Part shown: positions 31,875 to 40,308 of the stretch, piece by piece
Layout of the letters: every line of letters starts with the position of its first letter
Position numbering within the stretch: the first letter of the stretch is position 1
Program-made: the position numbers and the translations under genes
From: Kineosporia sp. A_224
GTDB lineage: Bacteria; Actinomycetota; Actinomycetes; Actinomycetales; Kineosporiaceae
Direction: 5' to 3'
Assembly (NCBI RefSeq): GCF_002198655.1
Contig: NZ_MWLN01000219.1
Coordinates: 1 to 50,907, forward strand
Length of the DNA: 50,907 nucleotides
Notes under the pieces: generated by a model
Told to the model about the DNA's origin: nothing
Databases searched by the model: none
Seen by the model: the letters and a program-made list of their open reading frames with translations, nothing else

Positions 31875-32146
31875 GTGGCACGCAGCCGTGACGGCCTCGA
31901 CCCAGATGCTCGGATGGGTGAACCACGGGTCGTGCGGCACTCCGGCGATGTCGACGAACCGTCCGTGCGGGAGCAGCCGCGGGGTTCCGGGTGCCAGGCG
32001 CGCACCCCGCGCGGCACGAGATGGTCGTCCTCGAGGTAGTGCACGCATCCAGGGCCGCCGGACAGGACGACGACGTCGGGTCCCTCACCGGTGACGCCCA
32101 CGTGCAGGCCGGCACCGTTGTCGCCGGGCACCGTCGTCGAACGCAT
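31875..32146 (-). pseudogene. Alpha/beta-hydrolase remnant with internal deletion
   Basis: About 57 codons from the ATG at 32146 match the N-terminus of the hydrolase at 39594 (LHVGVTGEGPDVVVLSGGP, then CVHYLE and RAWHPEPRG). In another frame the DNA continues straight into that gene's last 34 codons (LPHGRFVDIAGVPHDPWF, then HPSIWVEAVTAACH). The middle, about 150 residues including the nucleophile Ser, is absent. CAGACT precedes the start by six bases, as in the intact-length relative. Confidence 0.75.
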
Positions 32147-32208: not shown

Positions 32209-33648
32209 TCAGTCCCCCAGCTCGGCCCGGCGCCGGGTCACGTACGCCTCGAGCTCCTCGCGGACCGCCTCGTCGATCGGCGGCTGCTCGTACTCGTCGA
32301 GCTTCTTGCGCCAGACGTCGCTCGCCCGGGCCGCCGCGTCCTTGGCGCCGTTGCGCATCCAGCGGTCGTAGTTGTCCGAGGACGAGAGGAACGGCCGGTA
32401 GAAGCACGTCCGGAAGCGCTCCATCGTGTGCGCGGCACCGAGGAAGTGCCCGCCGTGGCCGACCTCCTCGTGCGCCCCGAACGCCAGGTTCTCCTCGGTG
32501 AACTCCAGCGGCGTGAACTCGGCCTGGAGCATCTCGAGGATCTGCATGTCGATGACGAACTTCTCGTACGACGCCACGAGGCCGCCGTCGAGCCAGCCCG
32601 CGGTGTGCATGACCCAGTTGATGCCCGCGAGGAACGACGGGAGCATCGTCATGAGGCCCTCGTACGCCGCCTGCGCGTCGGGCACCTGGGACGACGTGAG
32701 CGCGCCGCCCGAGCGCACGGGCAGGCCGAAGTGGCGCGCGATCTGCCCGGTGCAGAGCAGCCCGACGGCCGACTCCGGCGTCCCGAACTGCGGGCTGCCG
32801 GACTGCATGTCGATGTTCGACAGGAACGACCCGAAGACGACCGGGCTGCCGGGCCGGATGAGCTGGCTCAGGGTGATGCCGGTGAGCGCCTCGGCCATCT
32901 GCTGGGCCAGGGTCGCGGGGATCGACACCGGCGACATCGCCCCCATGAGCAGGAACGGCGTGATGACGACGGGCTGGTTCGCCGCGCTGTACTCGAACTG
33001 CGCGTCGAGCATCCGGTCGTCCCACCGCAGCGGCGAGTTGCAGTTGATGAGGGAGATCGTCGCCGGCGTGGCCTCGATGTTCGCCCGGCCGCCGAAGAGG
33101 ATGTCGGTCATCGCGAGGGTGTCGCGGGCGTTGACCCCGGAGACGACGTTGCCCATGTAGATCTTGTCGGTGAGGGTCTGCAGCGCGTAGATCATGTCGA
33201 GGTGCCGCGAGTCGAGCGGCGCGTCGTTCGGCTCGCAGATGACACCACCGGCGGAGTCGAGCATCGAGAACGACTGGGCGAGCTTGGTGAAGTTGCGGAA
33301 GTCGTCCATGGTCGCGTCCCGGCGGACCTCGCCCTCCCGGACGAAGGGCGGGCCGTACACCCCGCCGAAGGCCATCGAGTCGCCGCCGATGTGGACCGAC
33401 TTCTCCGGGTTCCGCGCCTGGATGTCGAACTCGCGGGGCGCCTTGGCGACCTGCTCGAGGATGAAGTCCGGGTCGAACCGGACGTTGTTGTCATCGACCT
33501 TCTGCCCCGCCGCCCGGAACAGGTCGAGCGCCCGGTCCGACAGGAACTCCACGCCGATGTCGGACACGAGCCGACGCCAGCCCTTGTCGAGGACGGCGAG
33601 CGACTCCTGCGACAGGATCTCGTACCGCGGCATGGCGTTGCGGAACAT
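32209..33648 (-). CDS. Trimethylamine-methyltransferase (MttB) family protein, non-pyrrolysine
   Basis: 479 residues, normal for the family. MttB-superfamily enzymes move a methyl group from a quaternary or tertiary amine to a corrinoid protein. The gene has no in-frame amber codon, so it belongs to the non-Pyl branch, whose studied members (such as MtgB) act on glycine betaine and related betaines. Visible segments: GIYGPPFV-like GGVYGPPFVREG, MGNVVSGVNARDT, LLCTGQIARHFGLP, and EEVGHGGHFLGAAHT (about 393-408), typical of the C-terminus. ATG at 33648 with AGGAGG upstream. Divergent from the IclR/corrinoid operon, which supports its role as the substrate-specific component. Confidence 0.9.
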   Translation of the reverse strand: MFRNAMPRYEILSQESLAVLDKGWRRLVSDIGVEFLSDRALDLFRAAGQKVDDNNVRFDPDFILEQVAKAPREFDIQARNPEKSVHIGGDSMAFGGVYGPPFVREGEVRRDATMDDFRNFTKLAQSFSMLDSAGGVICEPNDAPLDSRHLDMIYALQTLTDKIYMGNVVSGVNARDTLAMTDILFGGRANIEATPATISLINCNSPLRWDDRMLDAQFEYSAANQPVVITPFLLMGAMSPVSIPATLAQQMAEALTGITLSQLIRPGSPVVFGSFLSNIDMQSGSPQFGTPESAVGLLCTGQIARHFGLPVRSGGALTSSQVPDAQAAYEGLMTMLPSFLAGINWVMHTAGWLDGGLVASYEKFVIDMQILEMLQAEFTPLEFTEENLAFGAHEEVGHGGHFLGAAHTMERFRTCFYRPFLSSSDNYDRWMRNGAKDAAARASDVWRKKLDEYEQPPIDEAVREELEAYVTRRRAELGD

Positions 33649-33784
33649 CCGCACCTCCTGGAGCTGACGGGCTGCGGACGACGCGGGGGCGAGGTCCGGA
33701 AGGGCTTCGGGCTGAAGTCTGGGCGCACGGCGGCCGATCGATCCCTTGACCCTCCGAGCGGGCTGATCCTACGCTTCACTTATA

Positions 33785-33809
33785 GAACGCCGGTTCCATG
33801 ATATGGAAC
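33785..33809. promoter_or_regulatory. Palindromic operator between mttB and iclR
   Basis: GTTCCAT-GAT-ATGGAAC (33793-33809) is a perfect seven-base inverted repeat, and GAAC-GCCG-GTTC (33785-33796) overlaps its left arm. Size and symmetry fit an IclR-family site. It covers the region upstream of a TAGGAT -10 (33766-33771, minus) for mttB and lies 73 bases before the IclR start. Confidence 0.6.
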
Positions 33810-33881
33810 ATCACCACAGCTGCATCAGTCGCGGACCGGCAGGACGATCCTCCCCCGCGTGAGAGCCCGAGGAGGTCGACC

Positions 33882-34670
33882 GTGCCCACCGCCCCTGCTG
33901 GACAGGCCGGCAGCCAGGCCGTCGACCGCGCCGCCGCGCTCCTGGCCCTCGTCGTCGAGTCCGGCGAGCCGCGGACCTTCACCTCGCTCGTCGAGGAGGC
34001 CGGGCTGGCCAAGTCGACGACGTCCCGCCTGCTCCACGCCCTCGAGCGCGGCCGCCTCGTCCAGCGCGACCGCAGCGGCTCCTTCCGCCCCGGCCCGGTG
34101 TTCGCCGTCTACGCCGCCCGCCAGCAGACGATGCACGACCTCGTCGCGCTCCTGCGCCCGGCGATGGACCGGCTCGCCGCCGGCACCGGCGAGACCGTGA
34201 ACTTCGCGGTCCCCCGCGGCGACGGCGTCGTCCAGGTCGCCCAGGTCGACAGCCGGTACCTGCTCGGGACGACGAACTGGATCGGCGTGGACGACGTCCC
34301 GCCGCACTGCTCGGCCCAGGGCAAGATCTTCTACGCCTTCGGCCGGCTGCCGCTCCCGCCGCAGTCGGCCCTGCAGCGCCGCACCCCGAGCACGGTGGCC
34401 ACGGTCCCCCAGCTCGAGCGCGACCTCGTCGACGTCCGCCGCAGGGGCTGGGCCGTCGCGAACGAGGAGCTCGAGATCGGGCTCGTCGCGGTCGCCGCAC
34501 CCGTCCGTGCCACGGACGGCATCATTCTCGGCGCGCTCTCGGTCTCCGGGCCGACGGCGCGCATCCCCGCGGGCCGCATCGTCGCGGTCGGGGAGGCGCT
34601 CGTCGCCGAGGCCCGCAAGGTCTCCGCTCTGTTGGGGTACCACCACTCCGGGAAGGAAGGGGCCGCATGA
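33882..34670 (+). CDS. IclR-family transcriptional regulator
   Basis: 262 residues. N-terminal winged helix (AVDRAAALLALVVESGEP, and LAKSTTSRLLHALERGRLVQ as the recognition helix), then the IclR effector domain with VQVDSRYLLGT-like VAQVDSRYLLGT, PHCSAQGKIFYAF and ELEIGLVAVAAPVRATDG. The GTG at 33882 follows GAGGAGGT; an upstream ATG inside the operator is rejected. The stop overlaps the start of the corrinoid protein gene (ATGA), so regulator and B12 protein are made together. It probably senses the methyl donor or a product and controls both directions. Confidence 0.9.
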   Translation: MPTAPAGQAGSQAVDRAAALLALVVESGEPRTFTSLVEEAGLAKSTTSRLLHALERGRLVQRDRSGSFRPGPVFAVYAARQQTMHDLVALLRPAMDRLAAGTGETVNFAVPRGDGVVQVAQVDSRYLLGTTNWIGVDDVPPHCSAQGKIFYAFGRLPLPPQSALQRRTPSTVATVPQLERDLVDVRRRGWAVANEELEIGLVAVAAPVRATDGIILGALSVSGPTARIPAGRIVAVGEALVAEARKVSALLGYHHSGKEGAA

Positions 34671-35335
34671 ACGGCCAGGACATCCTCAAGGCCCTCTACG
34701 ACGAGACGCTCGTCGGCAACGCACCTCGCGTCCTCGAGCTGACCGCACAGGGTCTCGAGAGCGGCCTCGGCCCGGACGCGCTGCTCTTCGAGGCGCTCAT
34801 CCCCTCGCTCGAGGAGGTCGGCGCCCGGTTCGAGCGCGGCGACTTCTTCGTCCCGGAGATGCTCATCGCCGGCCGGGCGATGTCGGGCGCGCTCGACGTC
34901 CTGCGCCCGCTCCTCGCGGACACCGGCGCCGAGACGGTCGGCACGTTCCTCATGGGCACCGTCAAGGGCGACGTGCACGACATCGGCAAGAACCTCGTCA
35001 ACATCATGCTCGAGGGCGCCGGCTTCCAGGTCATCGACCTCGGCGTCCAGGTCTCCCCCGAGAAGTTCATCGCGGCCATCGAGGAGCACAAGCCCGACAT
35101 CGTCGGGTTCTCCGCGTTCCTCACGACGACGATGCCGATGTTCAAGGCGAACATGAACGCGCTCGAGAAGGCCGGCCTGCGCGACAAGGTCATCGTCATG
35201 GTCGGCGGCGCACCCGTCACGCAGGAGTACGCGGACGCCGTGGGCGCCGACGGCTACGCGGCCGACGCCTCGACCGCCGTCCGCCGGGCCAAGGACCTCA
35301 TCGCCCGCAAGCGCGCGGCCGCCGTCCCCGCCTGA
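34667..35335 (+). CDS. Corrinoid (B12-binding) methyl-carrier protein
   Basis: 222 residues. A helical cap domain (residues 1-88) is followed by a Rossmann B12-binding domain with the D-x-H-x-x-G motif at Asp102, His104 and Gly107 (GDVHDIGKN), the GFSAFLTTT loop and VMVGGAPVT. This is the MtbC/MttC/MtgC-type carrier that accepts a methyl from the MttB-family enzyme and passes it to tetrahydrofolate. Coupled to iclR by ATGA. A gap of 97 bases, which includes a GC stem (GGCGTCC...GGACGCC), separates it from the next gene. Confidence 0.93.
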   Translation: MNGQDILKALYDETLVGNAPRVLELTAQGLESGLGPDALLFEALIPSLEEVGARFERGDFFVPEMLIAGRAMSGALDVLRPLLADTGAETVGTFLMGTVKGDVHDIGKNLVNIMLEGAGFQVIDLGVQVSPEKFIAAIEEHKPDIVGFSAFLTTTMPMFKANMNALEKAGLRDKVIVMVGGAPVTQEYADAVGADGYAADASTAVRRAKDLIARKRAAAVPA

Positions 35336-35432
35336 CCGCAGCAGGGCAGCACAGGCCGGACGGCGTCCCAGCGCGGACGCCGTCCGGCCGGCCCGAACAG
35401 ACCTCCGGCACGTCCCCCGACAGGAGACCCGC

Positions 35433-36335
35433 ATGCACACCGTCGTCCGCTCGGCGACCAAAGAGCTCGTCATCGGTCCCGACCAGCCGTTCTGCATCAT
35501 CGGCGAGCGGATCAACCCGACGGGGCGGCCGAAGTTCCAGGAGGAGCTGCGCGCCGGCAACCTGGCCCGCGTCGAGGAGGACGTCCGGGCCCAGGTCGCG
35601 GGCGGCGCGATGATGCTCGACGTCAACATGGGCGTCCCGCTCGCCGACGAGGCCGAGCTGCTCGCCCGCGCCGTCAAGCTCGTCCAGTCCATGACGGACT
35701 TGCCGCTGTGCATCGACTCCAGCGTCGTCGAGGCGCTGGACGCCGGCCTCGCGGCGTACGAGGGCAAGGCCCTGGTCAACAGCGTCACCGGCGAGCAGGA
35801 CCGGCTCGACGCGATCCTGCCCCTCGTCAAGCGCTACGGCGCCGCGGTCATCGCCCTCCCCAACGAGGAGGACGAGATCCCCGAGGACCCGCGCAAGCGC
35901 CTCGAGATCACCAAGAAGATCGTCGGCGTCGCCACCGAGAAGTACGGCATCCCGATCGAGGACATCATCATCGACCCGCTCGCGATGCCGGTCGGCGCGA
36001 ACCACGAGTACGGCAAGCTGACGATGGAGGCGATCTCGCTCATCCGCGACGAGTTCGACCTCAACACGACCCTCGGCGCCGGCAACGTCTCGTTCGGCAT
36101 GCCCGGCCGGCACACCCTCGGGTCGACGTTCCTCACGATGGCCATGCACGCCGGCCTCACGACGGCGATCATGGACGCCCGGACGCCGCAGATGGTCGAC
36201 GCGATCAAGGCCGCCGACCTCATGATGGGCAACGACCCCTGGGGCGCGAACTGGATCTCCGCGTTCCGCGCCAAGCAGAAGGCGCAGGCGGAGGCCGAGG
36301 CCGCCGCGGCAGCCGCCGCCCAGCCGACCACGTGA
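35433..36335 (+). CDS. Methyl-tetrahydrofolate:corrinoid methyltransferase (MtgA/AcsE-type)
   Basis: 300 residues, pterin-binding TIM barrel. Family stretches: IGERINPTGRPKFQEEL (about 24-40), MLDVNMGVPLADE, LCIDSSVVEALDAGL, ALVNSVTGEQDRL and LGAGNVSFGMPGRH. It moves the methyl group between the corrinoid protein and tetrahydrofolate; in a demethylation pathway it makes methyl-THF. ATG start with CAGGAG. A low-complexity Ala/Glu tail ends the protein. The stop overlaps the RACo start (GTGA). Confidence 0.9.
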   Translation: MHTVVRSATKELVIGPDQPFCIIGERINPTGRPKFQEELRAGNLARVEEDVRAQVAGGAMMLDVNMGVPLADEAELLARAVKLVQSMTDLPLCIDSSVVEALDAGLAAYEGKALVNSVTGEQDRLDAILPLVKRYGAAVIALPNEEDEIPEDPRKRLEITKKIVGVATEKYGIPIEDIIIDPLAMPVGANHEYGKLTMEAISLIRDEFDLNTTLGAGNVSFGMPGRHTLGSTFLTMAMHAGLTTAIMDARTPQMVDAIKAADLMMGNDPWGANWISAFRAKQKAQAEAEAAAAAAAQPTT

Positions 36336-38299
36336 CCTCGACCCCGGACGGGCCCGCCCCCGCACCCCGCGAGGCCTACCTGCGCGAAGGCCTGCTCGGC
36401 GAGCACCCGGCGCCCCCGCCGCCCGCCGCCCCGGAGGGCGTCGGCCGGGTGCGGATCGCGTTCGTCCCCGGCGAGGCCGACCAGAAGAACCTCGCGGCCG
36501 AGCGGGACGTCCGGGTGCCGCCCGGCGTCACGGTCTTCGACGCCGCGTCCTGGAACGGCATCGCGATCGACTCCACCTGCGGCGGCCACGGCACGTGCCG
36601 CAAGTGCAAGATCCGCGTCGTCGAGGGCGACGTCCCGGTCGCACGGCTCGACCCGCGGGCGTTCTCCACCGAGCAGCTGCGGCAGGGCTGGCGGCTGGCC
36701 TGCCTGGCGCAGGCGAACCGCGACCTGCGGGTCGAGGTGCCGCCGCTGCTCACCCGGCCCAAGGCGGCCACCGTCGGCGTCGGCCGGCAGGTCATCCTGC
36801 GGCCCGCCGTCCAGAAGCGGTGCGTCACGCTCGCCGAGCCGACGCTCGCCGACCAGGTCCCGGACCTCGACCGGCTCCTCGCGCAGATCGACGACCTCGA
36901 GCTCCGGGTCGACCTGCACGCCCTGCGCAGCCTGCCGAAGGCACTGCGGGACAACGACTTCACCGTGACCGCGGTGATCGTCGACGACGTCCTCGTCGAC
37001 GTCGAGGGCGGCGACACGACCGAGCAGCGCTACGCGATCGCGTTCGACCTCGGCACGACGACGGTCGTCGCGACGCTGCTCGACCTCTCCACCGGCACGC
37101 CCTCCGCCGTCCGCTCCATGCTCAACAAGCAGCAGCCGTTCGGCGGCGACGTCATCAGCCGGATCAGCGCGACGATGCTCGACCCGGACGCCCTCGGCCG
37201 CCTGCGGGACGCCGCGCACGCGACCCTCGCCGAGCTCGCCGACGAGGTCTGCGCCGAGGCCGGCGTCGCCCCGCGGCACGTCTACGAGGTCGCGCTCGCC
37301 GGCAACGCGACGATGACGGCACTGGCCCTCGGGATCGACCCCGAGCCGCTCGGCGTCGCCCCGTTCGTCATGACCGCGAGCGGCTTCCCCGACGTCCTCG
37401 CCACCGACCTCGGCCTCGCGCTGCACCCGCGCGCCCGGGCGTACGTGTTCCCCTCGCTCGGCGCGTACGTCGGCGGCGACATCGTCGCGGGCATGCTCGC
37501 CAGCGGCATGGACCGCGACAAGCGGCTCCGGCTGTTCATCGACGTCGGCACCAACTGCGAGATCGTCCTCGGCGACGCGAGCCGCCTCGTCTCGACCGCG
37601 GCCCCGGCCGGCCCGGCCTTCGAGGGCGCCTCGATCCGGTGCGGGATGCGCGCCGCGGACGGCGCGATCGAGGTCGTCAAGATCAGCGACGACGACGTCC
37701 AGCTCCAGGTCATCGGGGACGTCGCCCCGATGGGCCTGTGCGGCTCCGGCCTCGTCGACGCCGTCGCCGAGCTCGCCGCCGTCGGCATCCTCGACACCTC
37801 GGGCCGGCTCGTCGCCGACGAGGTCGCCGCTGAGTTGCACCCGGGGCTGGCCGACCGGCTCCTCGCCGTCGGCAAGGAGCGGGTCTTCGTCCTGCACTGG
37901 AAGGGCGAGGTCGGCGACCTCGACGAGGCGATCTACCTGTCGCAGCGCGACGTCCGCGAGCTGCAGTTCGCCAAGGCCGCCATCGCGACCGGCTGGAAGC
38001 TCCTCGTCGAGGAGATCGGCGCCGACGTCGCCGACATCCAGCAGGTGCTCCTCGCCGGCTCCTTCGGGTCCTACCTGTCCCCCGCGAGCGCCGTCCGGAT
38101 CGGTCTGGTCCCCAAGGTGCCCCTGCTGCGGATCGTCAGCGCGGGCAATGTCGCCGGCGAGGGCGCGAAGATGACCCTGCTCTCGGTCCGCGAGCGCCAG
38201 GGCGCGCAGACCCTGCTCGAGGAGGTGCGCTACGTCGAGCTCTCCGACCGCACCGACTTCAACGACCTCTTCGTCGAGCAGCTGTCCTTCCCGGTCTGA
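36332..38299 (+). CDS. RACo-type corrinoid reactivation protein (2Fe-2S plus ASKHA ATPase)
   Basis: 655 residues. After a 38-residue Pro/Ala-rich start comes a ferredoxin-like domain with Cys83, Cys89, Cys92 (CGGHGTCRKC) and Cys124 for a 2Fe-2S cluster, then a linker, then the ASKHA/DUF4445 region with FDLGTTTVVATLLDL, IDVGTNCEIVLGD, GMRAADGAIE and LAGSFGSYLSPASAVRIGL. These proteins use ATP and an electron to reduce inactive Co(II) corrinoid to Co(I). Its presence shows the upstream carrier cycles through Co(I). Coupled by GTGA to the methyltransferase. Confidence 0.93.
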   Translation: MTSTPDGPAPAPREAYLREGLLGEHPAPPPPAAPEGVGRVRIAFVPGEADQKNLAAERDVRVPPGVTVFDAASWNGIAIDSTCGGHGTCRKCKIRVVEGDVPVARLDPRAFSTEQLRQGWRLACLAQANRDLRVEVPPLLTRPKAATVGVGRQVILRPAVQKRCVTLAEPTLADQVPDLDRLLAQIDDLELRVDLHALRSLPKALRDNDFTVTAVIVDDVLVDVEGGDTTEQRYAIAFDLGTTTVVATLLDLSTGTPSAVRSMLNKQQPFGGDVISRISATMLDPDALGRLRDAAHATLAELADEVCAEAGVAPRHVYEVALAGNATMTALALGIDPEPLGVAPFVMTASGFPDVLATDLGLALHPRARAYVFPSLGAYVGGDIVAGMLASGMDRDKRLRLFIDVGTNCEIVLGDASRLVSTAAPAGPAFEGASIRCGMRAADGAIEVVKISDDDVQLQVIGDVAPMGLCGSGLVDAVAELAAVGILDTSGRLVADEVAAELHPGLADRLLAVGKERVFVLHWKGEVGDLDEAIYLSQRDVRELQFAKAAIATGWKLLVEEIGADVADIQQVLLAGSFGSYLSPASAVRIGLVPKVPLLRIVSAGNVAGEGAKMTLLSVRERQGAQTLLEEVRYVELSDRTDFNDLFVEQLSFPV

Positions 38300-38927
38300 C
38301 GAGCGGCCCGACGACGGCGGGCCGGACGGCGGGCCGCGCGTCGGCGTCGTCGCCTGCGGCGCGCTCTCGCTGACGATCGGGCGGGTCGCCGCCCGGCGCG
38401 GCTGGCCCGTCGACGTCCACCCGCTGCCGCCGCTGCTGCACAACCACCCGGACCGGATCGCCGCGGCCGTCGAGGAGGCGCTCGCCGTCCTCGGGGAGCA
38501 CCGGCCCGGCTACGCCCGCCTCGCGGTCGCGTACGCCGACTGCGGCACGTACGGGGCCCTCGACGAGGTCCTGGCCCGGCACGGCGTCGCCCGGCTCGCC
38601 GGGGAGCACTGCTACGACGTCTACGCGGGCGTCCAGCGGCTCAGGGAGATCTTCGAGGCCGAGGCCGGGACGTACGTGCTCACCGACTTCCTCGCGGCGT
38701 CCTTCCGGCGCAGCGTCGTCGTCGAGCTGGGCCTGGACCGGTACCCCGAGCTGCACGAGGACTACTTCCGGCACTACCGCCGCGTCGTGTGGCTCGCGCA
38801 GCACCCGACGCCCGCGCTCGAGGCGGCGGTCGCGGACGCCGCCGCCGTGCTGCGGCTGCCGCTGGAACGGGTCGACGTCGGCGAGGGCGGGCTGGAGTCC
38901 GAGCTGGAGCGGCTCGTCACGGGCTGA
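38298..38927 (+). CDS. DUF1638 protein without a visible start codon
   Basis: The frame gives the full conserved DUF1638 body: GVVACGAL at the N-terminus, PLLHNHPDRI, AYADCGTYGALDEVL, GEHCYDVYAG, TYVLTDFLAASFRR and YRRVVWLAQ. DUF1638 genes often accompany MttB/corrinoid clusters and their role is unproven. No ATG, GTG or TTG occurs in frame between the upstream in-frame region and the conserved part; the first GTG (38676) would lose over half the domain. The frame begins as GAC immediately at the RACo stop context GTC-TGA-C, so the boundaries given are those of the open frame. Confidence 0.75.
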   Translation, partial: DERPDDGGPDGGPRVGVVACGALSLTIGRVAARRGWPVDVHPLPPLLHNHPDRIAAAVEEALAVLGEHRPGYARLAVAYADCGTYGALDEVLARHGVARLAGEHCYDVYAGVQRLREIFEAEAGTYVLTDFLAASFRRSVVVELGLDRYPELHEDYFRHYRRVVWLAQHPTPALEAAVADAAAVLRLPLERVDVGEGGLESELERLVTG

Positions 38928-39593: not shown

Positions 39594-40308
39594 GTGCGCT
39601 CCACGACCGTGACGGCCGACGACGGCGTCCTGCTCCACGTGGGCGTGACCGGCAGCGGTCCCGACGTCGTCGTCCTCTCCGGCGGTCCCGGCTGCGTGCA
39701 CTACCTCGAACGCGACGAACCTCGCGCCGCGCGGGACGCGCGCCTGGTACCCCGAACCCCGCGGCGTCGGCCGCTCCGCGGGCGGTCCGCACGACCTCGC
39801 CCGGGACGTCGCCGACCTGGAGGCCGTCCGGCAGGCCGCTGGGGTGGCCGGCGGGGTCGTGCTCGGTCACTCGTGGGGCGGCGACCTCGCGGTGCGGTAC
39901 GCGCTCGACCACCCGGCCGCCGTTCGCGGAGTCGTCGCGGTCGCCGCGCACGGTCTGCACCAGGACCGGACGTGGTCGGCGGCCTACCACGCCCTCAAGA
40001 ACACCGAGGCCGGGATCGACGTCGCTTGGGATCCGGGTGTGCACGGTGCGCTCAGCGAGTCCTTCGTGGAGTGGATCCATGAGCGCGACCTGCTCCGCCG
40101 CCTCGCGGACTGCCAGGTGCCGACGACGGTCGTCGCCGCGGAGCACGACATCCGCCCGGCGTGGCCGCTCCGACAGCTCGCCGCACTGCTCCCCCGGGGC
40201 CGCCTCGTGGAGGTCCCCGGCGTACCGCACGACCTGTGGTCGACGCACCCCCAGGTGTGGGTCGACGTCGTGACCGCCGCGTGCCACGGGCCCGCACGAC
40301 GCGCCTGA
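39594..40308 (+). pseudogene. Alpha/beta hydrolase (proline-iminopeptidase-like) with one frameshift
   Basis: The first 42 codons (LLHVGVTGSGPDVVVLSGGP, then CVHYLERDE) and the remainder from about 39720 (LAPRGTRAWYPEPRG, LGHSWGGDLAVRYAL with the nucleophile Ser, AEHDIRP, GVPHDLW) lie in two frames. Removing one C near 39718-39720 restores a single 237-residue protein. The shift is either a real mutation or a sequencing error. A deleted relative lies at 31875-32146. CACGAT stands six bases before the GTG. Confidence 0.75.

Follow-up and report, generated by a model that had tools for sequence, protein, structure and literature searches.

Kineosporia sp. A_224 carries, on contig NZ_MWLN01000219.1, a gene for a RACo-type corrinoid reductive activase followed by a gene for a protein of the family DUF1638. 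The stretch of DNA analysed, positions 1 to 50,907 of this contig, is referred to as the window. DUF1638 is conserved and intact here, and it has no canonical start codon. It is probably initiated at the ACG at 38232-38234, a codon inside RACo that would descend from an ATG overlapping RACo in relatives. DUF1638 would then be an ordinary second gene starting out of frame within the 3' end of RACo. Its ancestral start would have been an ATG made from the TAT of a conserved RACo tyrosine and the G of the next valine codon, behind the Shine-Dalgarno sequence AGGAGGTG. In Kineosporia, a change of TAT to TAC, silent for RACo, would have left ACG with no canonical replacement. Ribosomes would still initiate at 38232-38234, aided by a perfect Shine-Dalgarno sequence at good spacing, and the outcome would be low expression of the partner protein of RACo.

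The DUF1638 frame and its start region

The RACo gene occupies 36332..38299 on the + strand. It matches Pfam Fer2, RACo_linker, Raco_middle and RACo_C_ter, all four above cut-off (the 2Fe-2S, linker, middle and C-terminal domains), and the NCBIfam AcsV and RamA-like models fall below cut-off. Its start is probably a GTG overlapping the TGA of the preceding gene, and its stop is the TGA at 38297-38299, in the context GTC-TGA-C. The DUF1638 frame is +1 relative to RACo and ends at the TGA at 38925-38927. An earlier description made from the letters alone, hereafter the sequence-only reading, had reported both the RACo end and the +1 relation, and the sequence agrees. It had also placed the opening of the DUF1638 frame at the RACo stop, which is incorrect. 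The 5' boundary, taken from sequence and translation, is the in-frame TGA at 38172..38174 (+), and the frame is open from 38175, inside RACo and 122 nucleotides (nt) ahead of the RACo TGA. The 54 codons from 38175 to 38336 that precede the domain contain no ATG, GTG or TTG, as the sequence-only reading had noticed. They contain no CTG, ATT, ATC or ATA either, which disposes of the CTG start it had offered and of starts at the other three codons. Such a lack is no rarity, since ATG, GTG and TTG are all missing from 24539 of the 68381 overlapping stop-free stretches of 54 codons in this GC-rich window; the oddity is an intact conserved gene without a start, rather than the length of the startless stretch.

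The conserved DUF1638 domain lies at 38337..38924 (+), from RVGVVACGAL onwards, as delimited by Pfam PF07796, alignment and an AlphaFold2 model. The match to PF07796 scores 74 bits (gathering cut-off 27) and covers profile positions 2-158 of 161; the domain is intact, and the earlier statement that the conserved sequence is fully present holds. The model has a mean predicted local distance difference test (pLDDT) value of 90.3, with the first strand at domain residues 2-6. A fold search of this model against the PDB gave no match at E 0.001 or better, and the predicted fold may be one without a solved close relative.

The nearest named relative carrying the locus belongs to the same genus, Kineosporia sp. 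R_H_3 (locus L003; the window locus is L001). It has the identical frame, the same ACG and no canonical start, and its linker between the RACo stop and the domain is 15 nt shorter, in frame. In both species, canonical starts are absent all the way from the opening of the frame to the first codons of the domain. Because Kineosporia sp. R_H_3 has the same startless frame, an assembly slip in the window is unlikely. The one-base sequencing error or mutational loss that had been suggested is contradicted by this sister species. With the ACG, the frame and the startlessness all repeated there, a sequencing error was rejected, and an error of sequencing or assembly in the window is extremely improbable.

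The comparison of the two species also bears on whether the start has been lost and DUF1638 is untranslated, as an early pseudogene in Kineosporia. Their DUF1638 sequences differ at 21 of 588 sites, 14 of the 21 at third positions and with eight amino acid differences, and neither has a stop or a frame-breaking change. Nonsynonymous (dN) and synonymous (dS) divergence are 0.019 and 0.084 for DUF1638 (dN/dS ~0.23) and 0.008 and 0.125 for RACo (dN/dS ~0.06). The higher dN/dS of DUF1638 would suit a pseudogene. So would the ratio of DUF1638 to RACo amino acid divergence, which at 2.92 is larger than in any other of the 25 closest pairs listed and lies above the range for pairs of relatives that both have the overlapping ATG (median 1.38, 5-95% range 1.13-1.84, from 496 pairs that are mostly far more divergent); close ATG pairs, however, reach 2.64. 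In DUF1638, 63 columns do not vary among 11 relatives; L001 retains 60 of them and L003 61, alterations of three and two that would also be expected of decay. In other pairs tested in the same manner, however, the number retained is 60 or 61 out of 61, 60 or 62 out of 62, and 63 or 66 out of 70, with 0-7 of 61-70 columns altered. The lack of stops and frame breaks in either species and the preponderance of third-position differences argue against a pseudogene, which is an unlikely explanation. Judged from these substitutions, DUF1638 looks to be under selection, less tightly than RACo; the differences between L001 and L003 fit selection on a translated gene and are also compatible with early decay.

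The overlapping ATG of relatives and the ACG of Kineosporia

Loci were obtained from overlapping searches of 58 relatives and of 394 class, 13 family and 396 order genomes, together with the best 80 of 304 loci from a contig scan; in the class-genome search, loci were obtained for 30 of 43 matches. The survey comprised 114 DUF1638 loci, 113 of them with RACo just upstream. Left out of the counts were L035 (taken to be L003), L039 (taken to be L002) and L084, in which the RACo stop is not immediately upstream. Of the remaining 111 loci, 17 duplicated another locus over the 120 nt surrounding the site and were removed, leaving 94 non-redundant loci; L115-L157 are outside the locus counts. DUF1638 lies in the +1 frame in 57 of the 94, in the usual ATGA-overlap frame in 34, most of which begin DUF1638 at the RACo stop, and in the RACo frame after the stop in three. 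All 11 loci titled Pseudonocardia or Pseudonocardiales have the +1 frame. Most counts below refer to the 48 non-redundant +1 loci with a GC content of at least 0.68.

Many of the +1 loci have, behind GGAGGTG, an in-frame ATG some 65 nt ahead of the end of RACo. Its first two bases are those that end a RACo tyrosine codon, TAT, and its G opens the valine codon that follows, within the motif YVELS. This tyrosine is encoded by TAT in 32 of the 48 high-GC loci, whereas the other tyrosine codons of these RACo pieces are TAT in 13 of 279 cases (Fisher 3e-22, the sequences being related). The valine at the Shine-Dalgarno position is GTG in all 29 ATG loci having valine there (other valine codons, 807 of 1948), and the Shine-Dalgarno duplex is -14 kcal/mol or stronger in 28 of the 32 ATG loci. 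In the nearest family member and closest relative outside the genus, L002, the homologous codon is ATG and the Shine-Dalgarno sequence is the same; an order member, L034, likewise has a homologous in-frame ATG with a Shine-Dalgarno sequence. Across the ATG set, silent sites of RACo change less in the overlap than in amino-acid-matched upstream columns (0 of 5000 resamples). At the level of sequence comparison, these data demonstrate selection for the overlapping ATG in relatives. The ATG is presumably the start of the +1 form of DUF1638, and it would be ancestral in Kineosporia. A quick tree of RACo and DUF1638, in which support is weak for 16 of 51 inner branches, places ACG in Kineosporia, in Pseudonocardia and elsewhere, with ATG forms standing among the Pseudonocardia ACG forms; there are at least seven state changes, a count that gives no direction.

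The codon of the window homologous to this ATG is the ACG at 38232..38234 (+), identified from 111 loci, a codon listing and near-cognate scores and formed by the TAC-G of the RACo Tyr-Val in YVELS. Ahead of it, AGGAGGTG at 38220..38227 (+) is a perfect 8-nt complement of CACCTCCT in the 3' end of 16S rRNA, and AGGAGG is spaced 6 nt from the ACG. A 16S 3'-end pattern holding the AGGAGGTG complement was found once in the window's genome. With a predicted duplex of -15.2 kcal/mol, the ACG at 38232 is surpassed by a single one of the 1513 + strand ACG triplets of the window and by none of the 75 in 36332-38927. The codons one base from ATG between 38175 and the domain are three AGG (-2.9, -2.1 and -5.3), the ACG at 38232 (-15.2) and an ACG at 38262 (0.1). 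The proposed DUF1638 gene, as drawn from the open frame and the relatives, would occupy 38232..38927 (+), with a 68 nt overlap with RACo and an N-terminal extension rich in Ser, Thr and Pro. The sequence-only reading had listed a rare start other than CTG among its options, and this fits best. It had also pointed to the junction in relatives, where an ordinary ATG is often present, inside RACo at the homologous codon, and where the TGA-C that it had emphasised is not conserved.

The high-GC +1 set contains 16 ACG loci, L001 and L003 included. These two alone are without a canonical codon throughout the open frame; each of the other 14 has one at some point. L051, L040, L043 and L059 have none between the ACG and the domain and have a canonical codon at least 75 nt upstream of the ACG, which in L051 is a GTG lying 93 nt before the ACG (duplex -6.0); L040, L043 and L059 also have a GTG at the start of the DUF1638 domain. 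In L042, L045 and L072 a GTG or TTG lies beyond the RACo stop. The alternative canonical codons of these seven loci have duplexes of -7.7 to +1.9, compared with -15.6 at the ACG. A GTG within the first domain strand, found in several Pseudonocardia loci, was rejected as an unlikely start because the strand would be cut; it is absent in the window, L003 and L051. L016, L027, L044, L053, L076, L086 and L092 have an ATG, GTG or TTG that may have replaced the start. The ATG apparently taking over in L044, L053 and L086 pairs no more strongly than -3.7 to -3.2, so a weak duplex cannot rule out a start. Two observations concern individual loci. In L086 the codon after the ACG is a stop, and 35 nt ahead of the RACo stop there is an in-frame ATG, which would suit a downstream shift of the start. 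The linkers of L072 and L045 contain repeated in-frame codon blocks that give DUF1638 a longer N-terminus, with the frame kept.

Nine ACG loci of Kineosporia and Pseudonocardia have no canonical start from the ACG to the RACo stop, and their duplexes lie between -15.2 and -15.6. A duplex of -14 or stronger is found in all nine and in two of the seven other ACG loci (p 0.005, or 0.02 if L092, at -13.2, is counted), a grouping that was chosen post hoc and consists of related loci. A strict split, by the absence of a canonical start from the ACG to the domain, gives strong duplexes in 6/6 versus 5/10 (p 0.09). The valine codon inside the Shine-Dalgarno sequence is GTG in 9/9 of these loci and in 205/570 of other valine codons. 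Their linkers range from 23 to 65 codons, and the frame is always kept. This retention of frame despite changes in length, together with the +1 frame of all 11 Pseudonocardia and Pseudonocardiales loci, suggests that translation enters upstream of the linker.

Frameshifting, reinitiation and the case for the ACG

The sequence-only reading had raised a programmed +1 frameshift near the RACo stop, at GTC-TGA-C, which would yield a RACo-DUF1638 fusion. A programmed +1 frameshift at UGA-C is known from prfB, and the present pair resembles it in its +1 geometry and in a UGA-C ending the first frame. TGA-C is found in both the window and L003, and survival of the linker frame through length changes would also suit a shift. 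The pair differs from prfB in having neither the CUU slip codon nor a Shine-Dalgarno-like run, in its unconserved context and in the in-frame ATG of relatives. The P-site codon before the RACo TGA is GTC, and by the decoding rules a slip from GUC to UCU would presumably not re-pair. No AGG- or GGAG-like run, as expected of an internal Shine-Dalgarno sequence of the prfB type, occurs in the 30 nt before the RACo TGA of the window. TGA-C is not enriched in ACG loci (6/16, versus 14/32 ATG loci, which need no shift; p 0.76), whose stop contexts include GTC-TGA-C, GTC-TGA-G, GTC-TGA-A, ACC-TGA-G (in L051), TCC-TGA-C and CCC-TGA-G. None of the 113 loci, duplicates included, is a RACo-DUF1638 fusion, and 32 of the 48 relatives carry the in-frame ATG in the overlap. 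The genome's own prfB match, covering 2-352 of 353 positions, is a single open frame without an internal stop. On the TGA-C counts, the absent fusions and the one-frame prfB, frameshifting at GTC-TGA-C was dropped as the leading reading, and it is now improbable.

Translation could also begin after RACo termination, by reinitiation or by weak initiation at a non-canonical codon nearer the domain, such as the GTC codons before VACG. The 34 of 94 loci in the ATGA-overlap frame, mostly starting at the RACo stop, indicate that a near-stop start is possible for this gene. However, the linker keeps its frame while its length varies, no codon in 38265-38336 is one base from ATG, and a start inside VGVV would cut the first strand. 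A start of this kind is unlikely.

Several observations weigh against initiation at the ACG. ACG starts translation very poorly in E. coli reporters, where ACG, TTT, GTT and TAA together are given as 0.1-1.5% of ATG (PMC6925171). A single exact pattern search of the genome, which would miss a tRNA with a different loop or stem, found no special initiator tRNA: the two initiator-type arms that it returned both have CAT. Within Kineosporia (2731/5000 resamples) and within Pseudonocardia (1221/5000), the overlap shows no significant silent-site constraint, and the seven other ACG loci show none (4982/5000). Between groups, the resamples at or below the observed value number 253/5000 for Kineosporia versus Pseudonocardia, which is borderline, 280/5000 for Kineosporia versus the ATG loci and 1/5000 for Pseudonocardia versus the ATG loci. 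Silent change is likewise reduced in a control set whose starts are ordinary (13/5000), and thus the silent-site test cannot separate the readings. The Shine-Dalgarno sequence encodes Glu-Glu-Val in RACo, and it may simply be inherited. Lastly, the wholly startless condition is confined to the two Kineosporia genomes, and in Pseudonocardia the ACG loci contain further canonical codons in frame.

Initiation at the ACG is supported by the homologous ATG and Shine-Dalgarno sequence of relatives and by the lack of any canonical start in the window and L003. The ACG is present in two species, the Shine-Dalgarno sequence is in place, and the gene is intact with mostly silent changes; from these features of the DNA we infer that the ACG at 38232 is actually used. 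Overlaps between genes in bacterial operons are commonly 1-4 nt long. The Shine-Dalgarno sequence and ATG of DUF1638 inside the upstream gene of relatives are similar to other out-of-frame overlapping starts in such operons, but the overlap is approximately 68 nt and the codon in Kineosporia is ACG. Non-canonical bacterial start codons include CUG, and AUU as in infC. The proposed start likewise would be a case of initiation outside AUG, GUG and UUG with a strong Shine-Dalgarno sequence, whereas ACG has its mismatch at the second codon position. It is conceivable, if short of probable, that ACG is a stable natural start of a conserved bacterial gene in Kineosporia, perhaps reached again in Pseudonocardia; the GC-biased codon use of the overlapping gene would drive ATG to ACG at a site silent for that gene, and a very strong Shine-Dalgarno sequence would make up for the poor codon. 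A bolder form would be a C-to-U change in the mRNA that restores AUG. Among the papers listed in literature searches, no title or abstract beginning names a natural bacterial ACG start, and by title none of the papers found on RACo and DUF1638 with frameshifting or an overlapping start codon concerns the start of this pair.

Gene neighbourhood and meaning

By Pfam and NCBIfam profiles, positions 32209-38927 of the window hold a gene set for corrinoid-dependent methyl transfer around the RACo/DUF1638 pair. Upstream of RACo in the putative operon lies a methyltetrahydrofolate-corrinoid methyltransferase (35433..36335, +; pterin-binding, with Pfam Pterin_bind and NF005719 above cut-off). The set also includes a corrinoid protein of the MtgC/MtbC-like type (34667..35335, +; Pfam B12-binding and B12-binding_2, with the NCBIfam MtgC-like model below cut-off), an IclR-type regulator (33798..34670, +; NCBIfam BhcR, AllR and IclR models, all below cut-off) and an MttB-family methyltransferase on the opposite strand (32209..33654, -; Pfam MTTB, E 5.8e-187). 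Downstream, a gene judged by eye from its sequence to be alpha/beta-hydrolase-like is split between two frames at 39594-40308 (+), and a minus-strand frame starting at 32146 has an N-terminal piece resembling it.

DUF1638 is probably a functional partner of RACo. In Phaeobacter inhibens, the fitness of a DUF1638 gene and a RamA-like gene correlates with that of methionine synthase genes, and methionine rescues mutants of both, which is interpreted there as B12 reactivation (PMC5764234). In Ruegeria pomeroyi, the abundance of both proteins is higher on N-osmolytes (PMC12478193). Taken together, the data from these two organisms make it likely that DUF1638 is a working partner of RACo and no stray frame. 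The Phaeobacter inhibens module is similar to that of Kineosporia in combining a RACo-type activase with DUF1638 and corrinoid methyltransferase genes; in Kineosporia, by contrast, the genes overlap and the DUF1638 start is non-canonical. Among the 394 class genomes, the RACo C-terminus was matched in 45 and DUF1638 in 43, all 43 within those 45. This near-identical distribution of DUF1638 and this RACo type points to a close partnership.

To our knowledge, ACG is not among the starts of bacterial code table 11. If the ACG is used, a codon outside those starts is functional at a conserved gene, and in GC-rich genomes gene finders would overlook genes like it or call them too short. What is new would be non-canonical initiation, itself a known phenomenon, at ACG, a codon without a natural bacterial case in the titles and abstract beginnings listed. 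Should the ACG not be used, the locus would involve frameshifting or reinitiation that lacks its customary signals, or else the loss of a gene in progress, which would also be informative. The overlap is a natural experiment in which a start codon and the tyrosine codon of another protein share a base, and in which ATG and ACG alternate on the tree. The locus can serve as a non-pathogenic test system for how far a strong Shine-Dalgarno sequence rescues a mismatch at the second position of a start codon.

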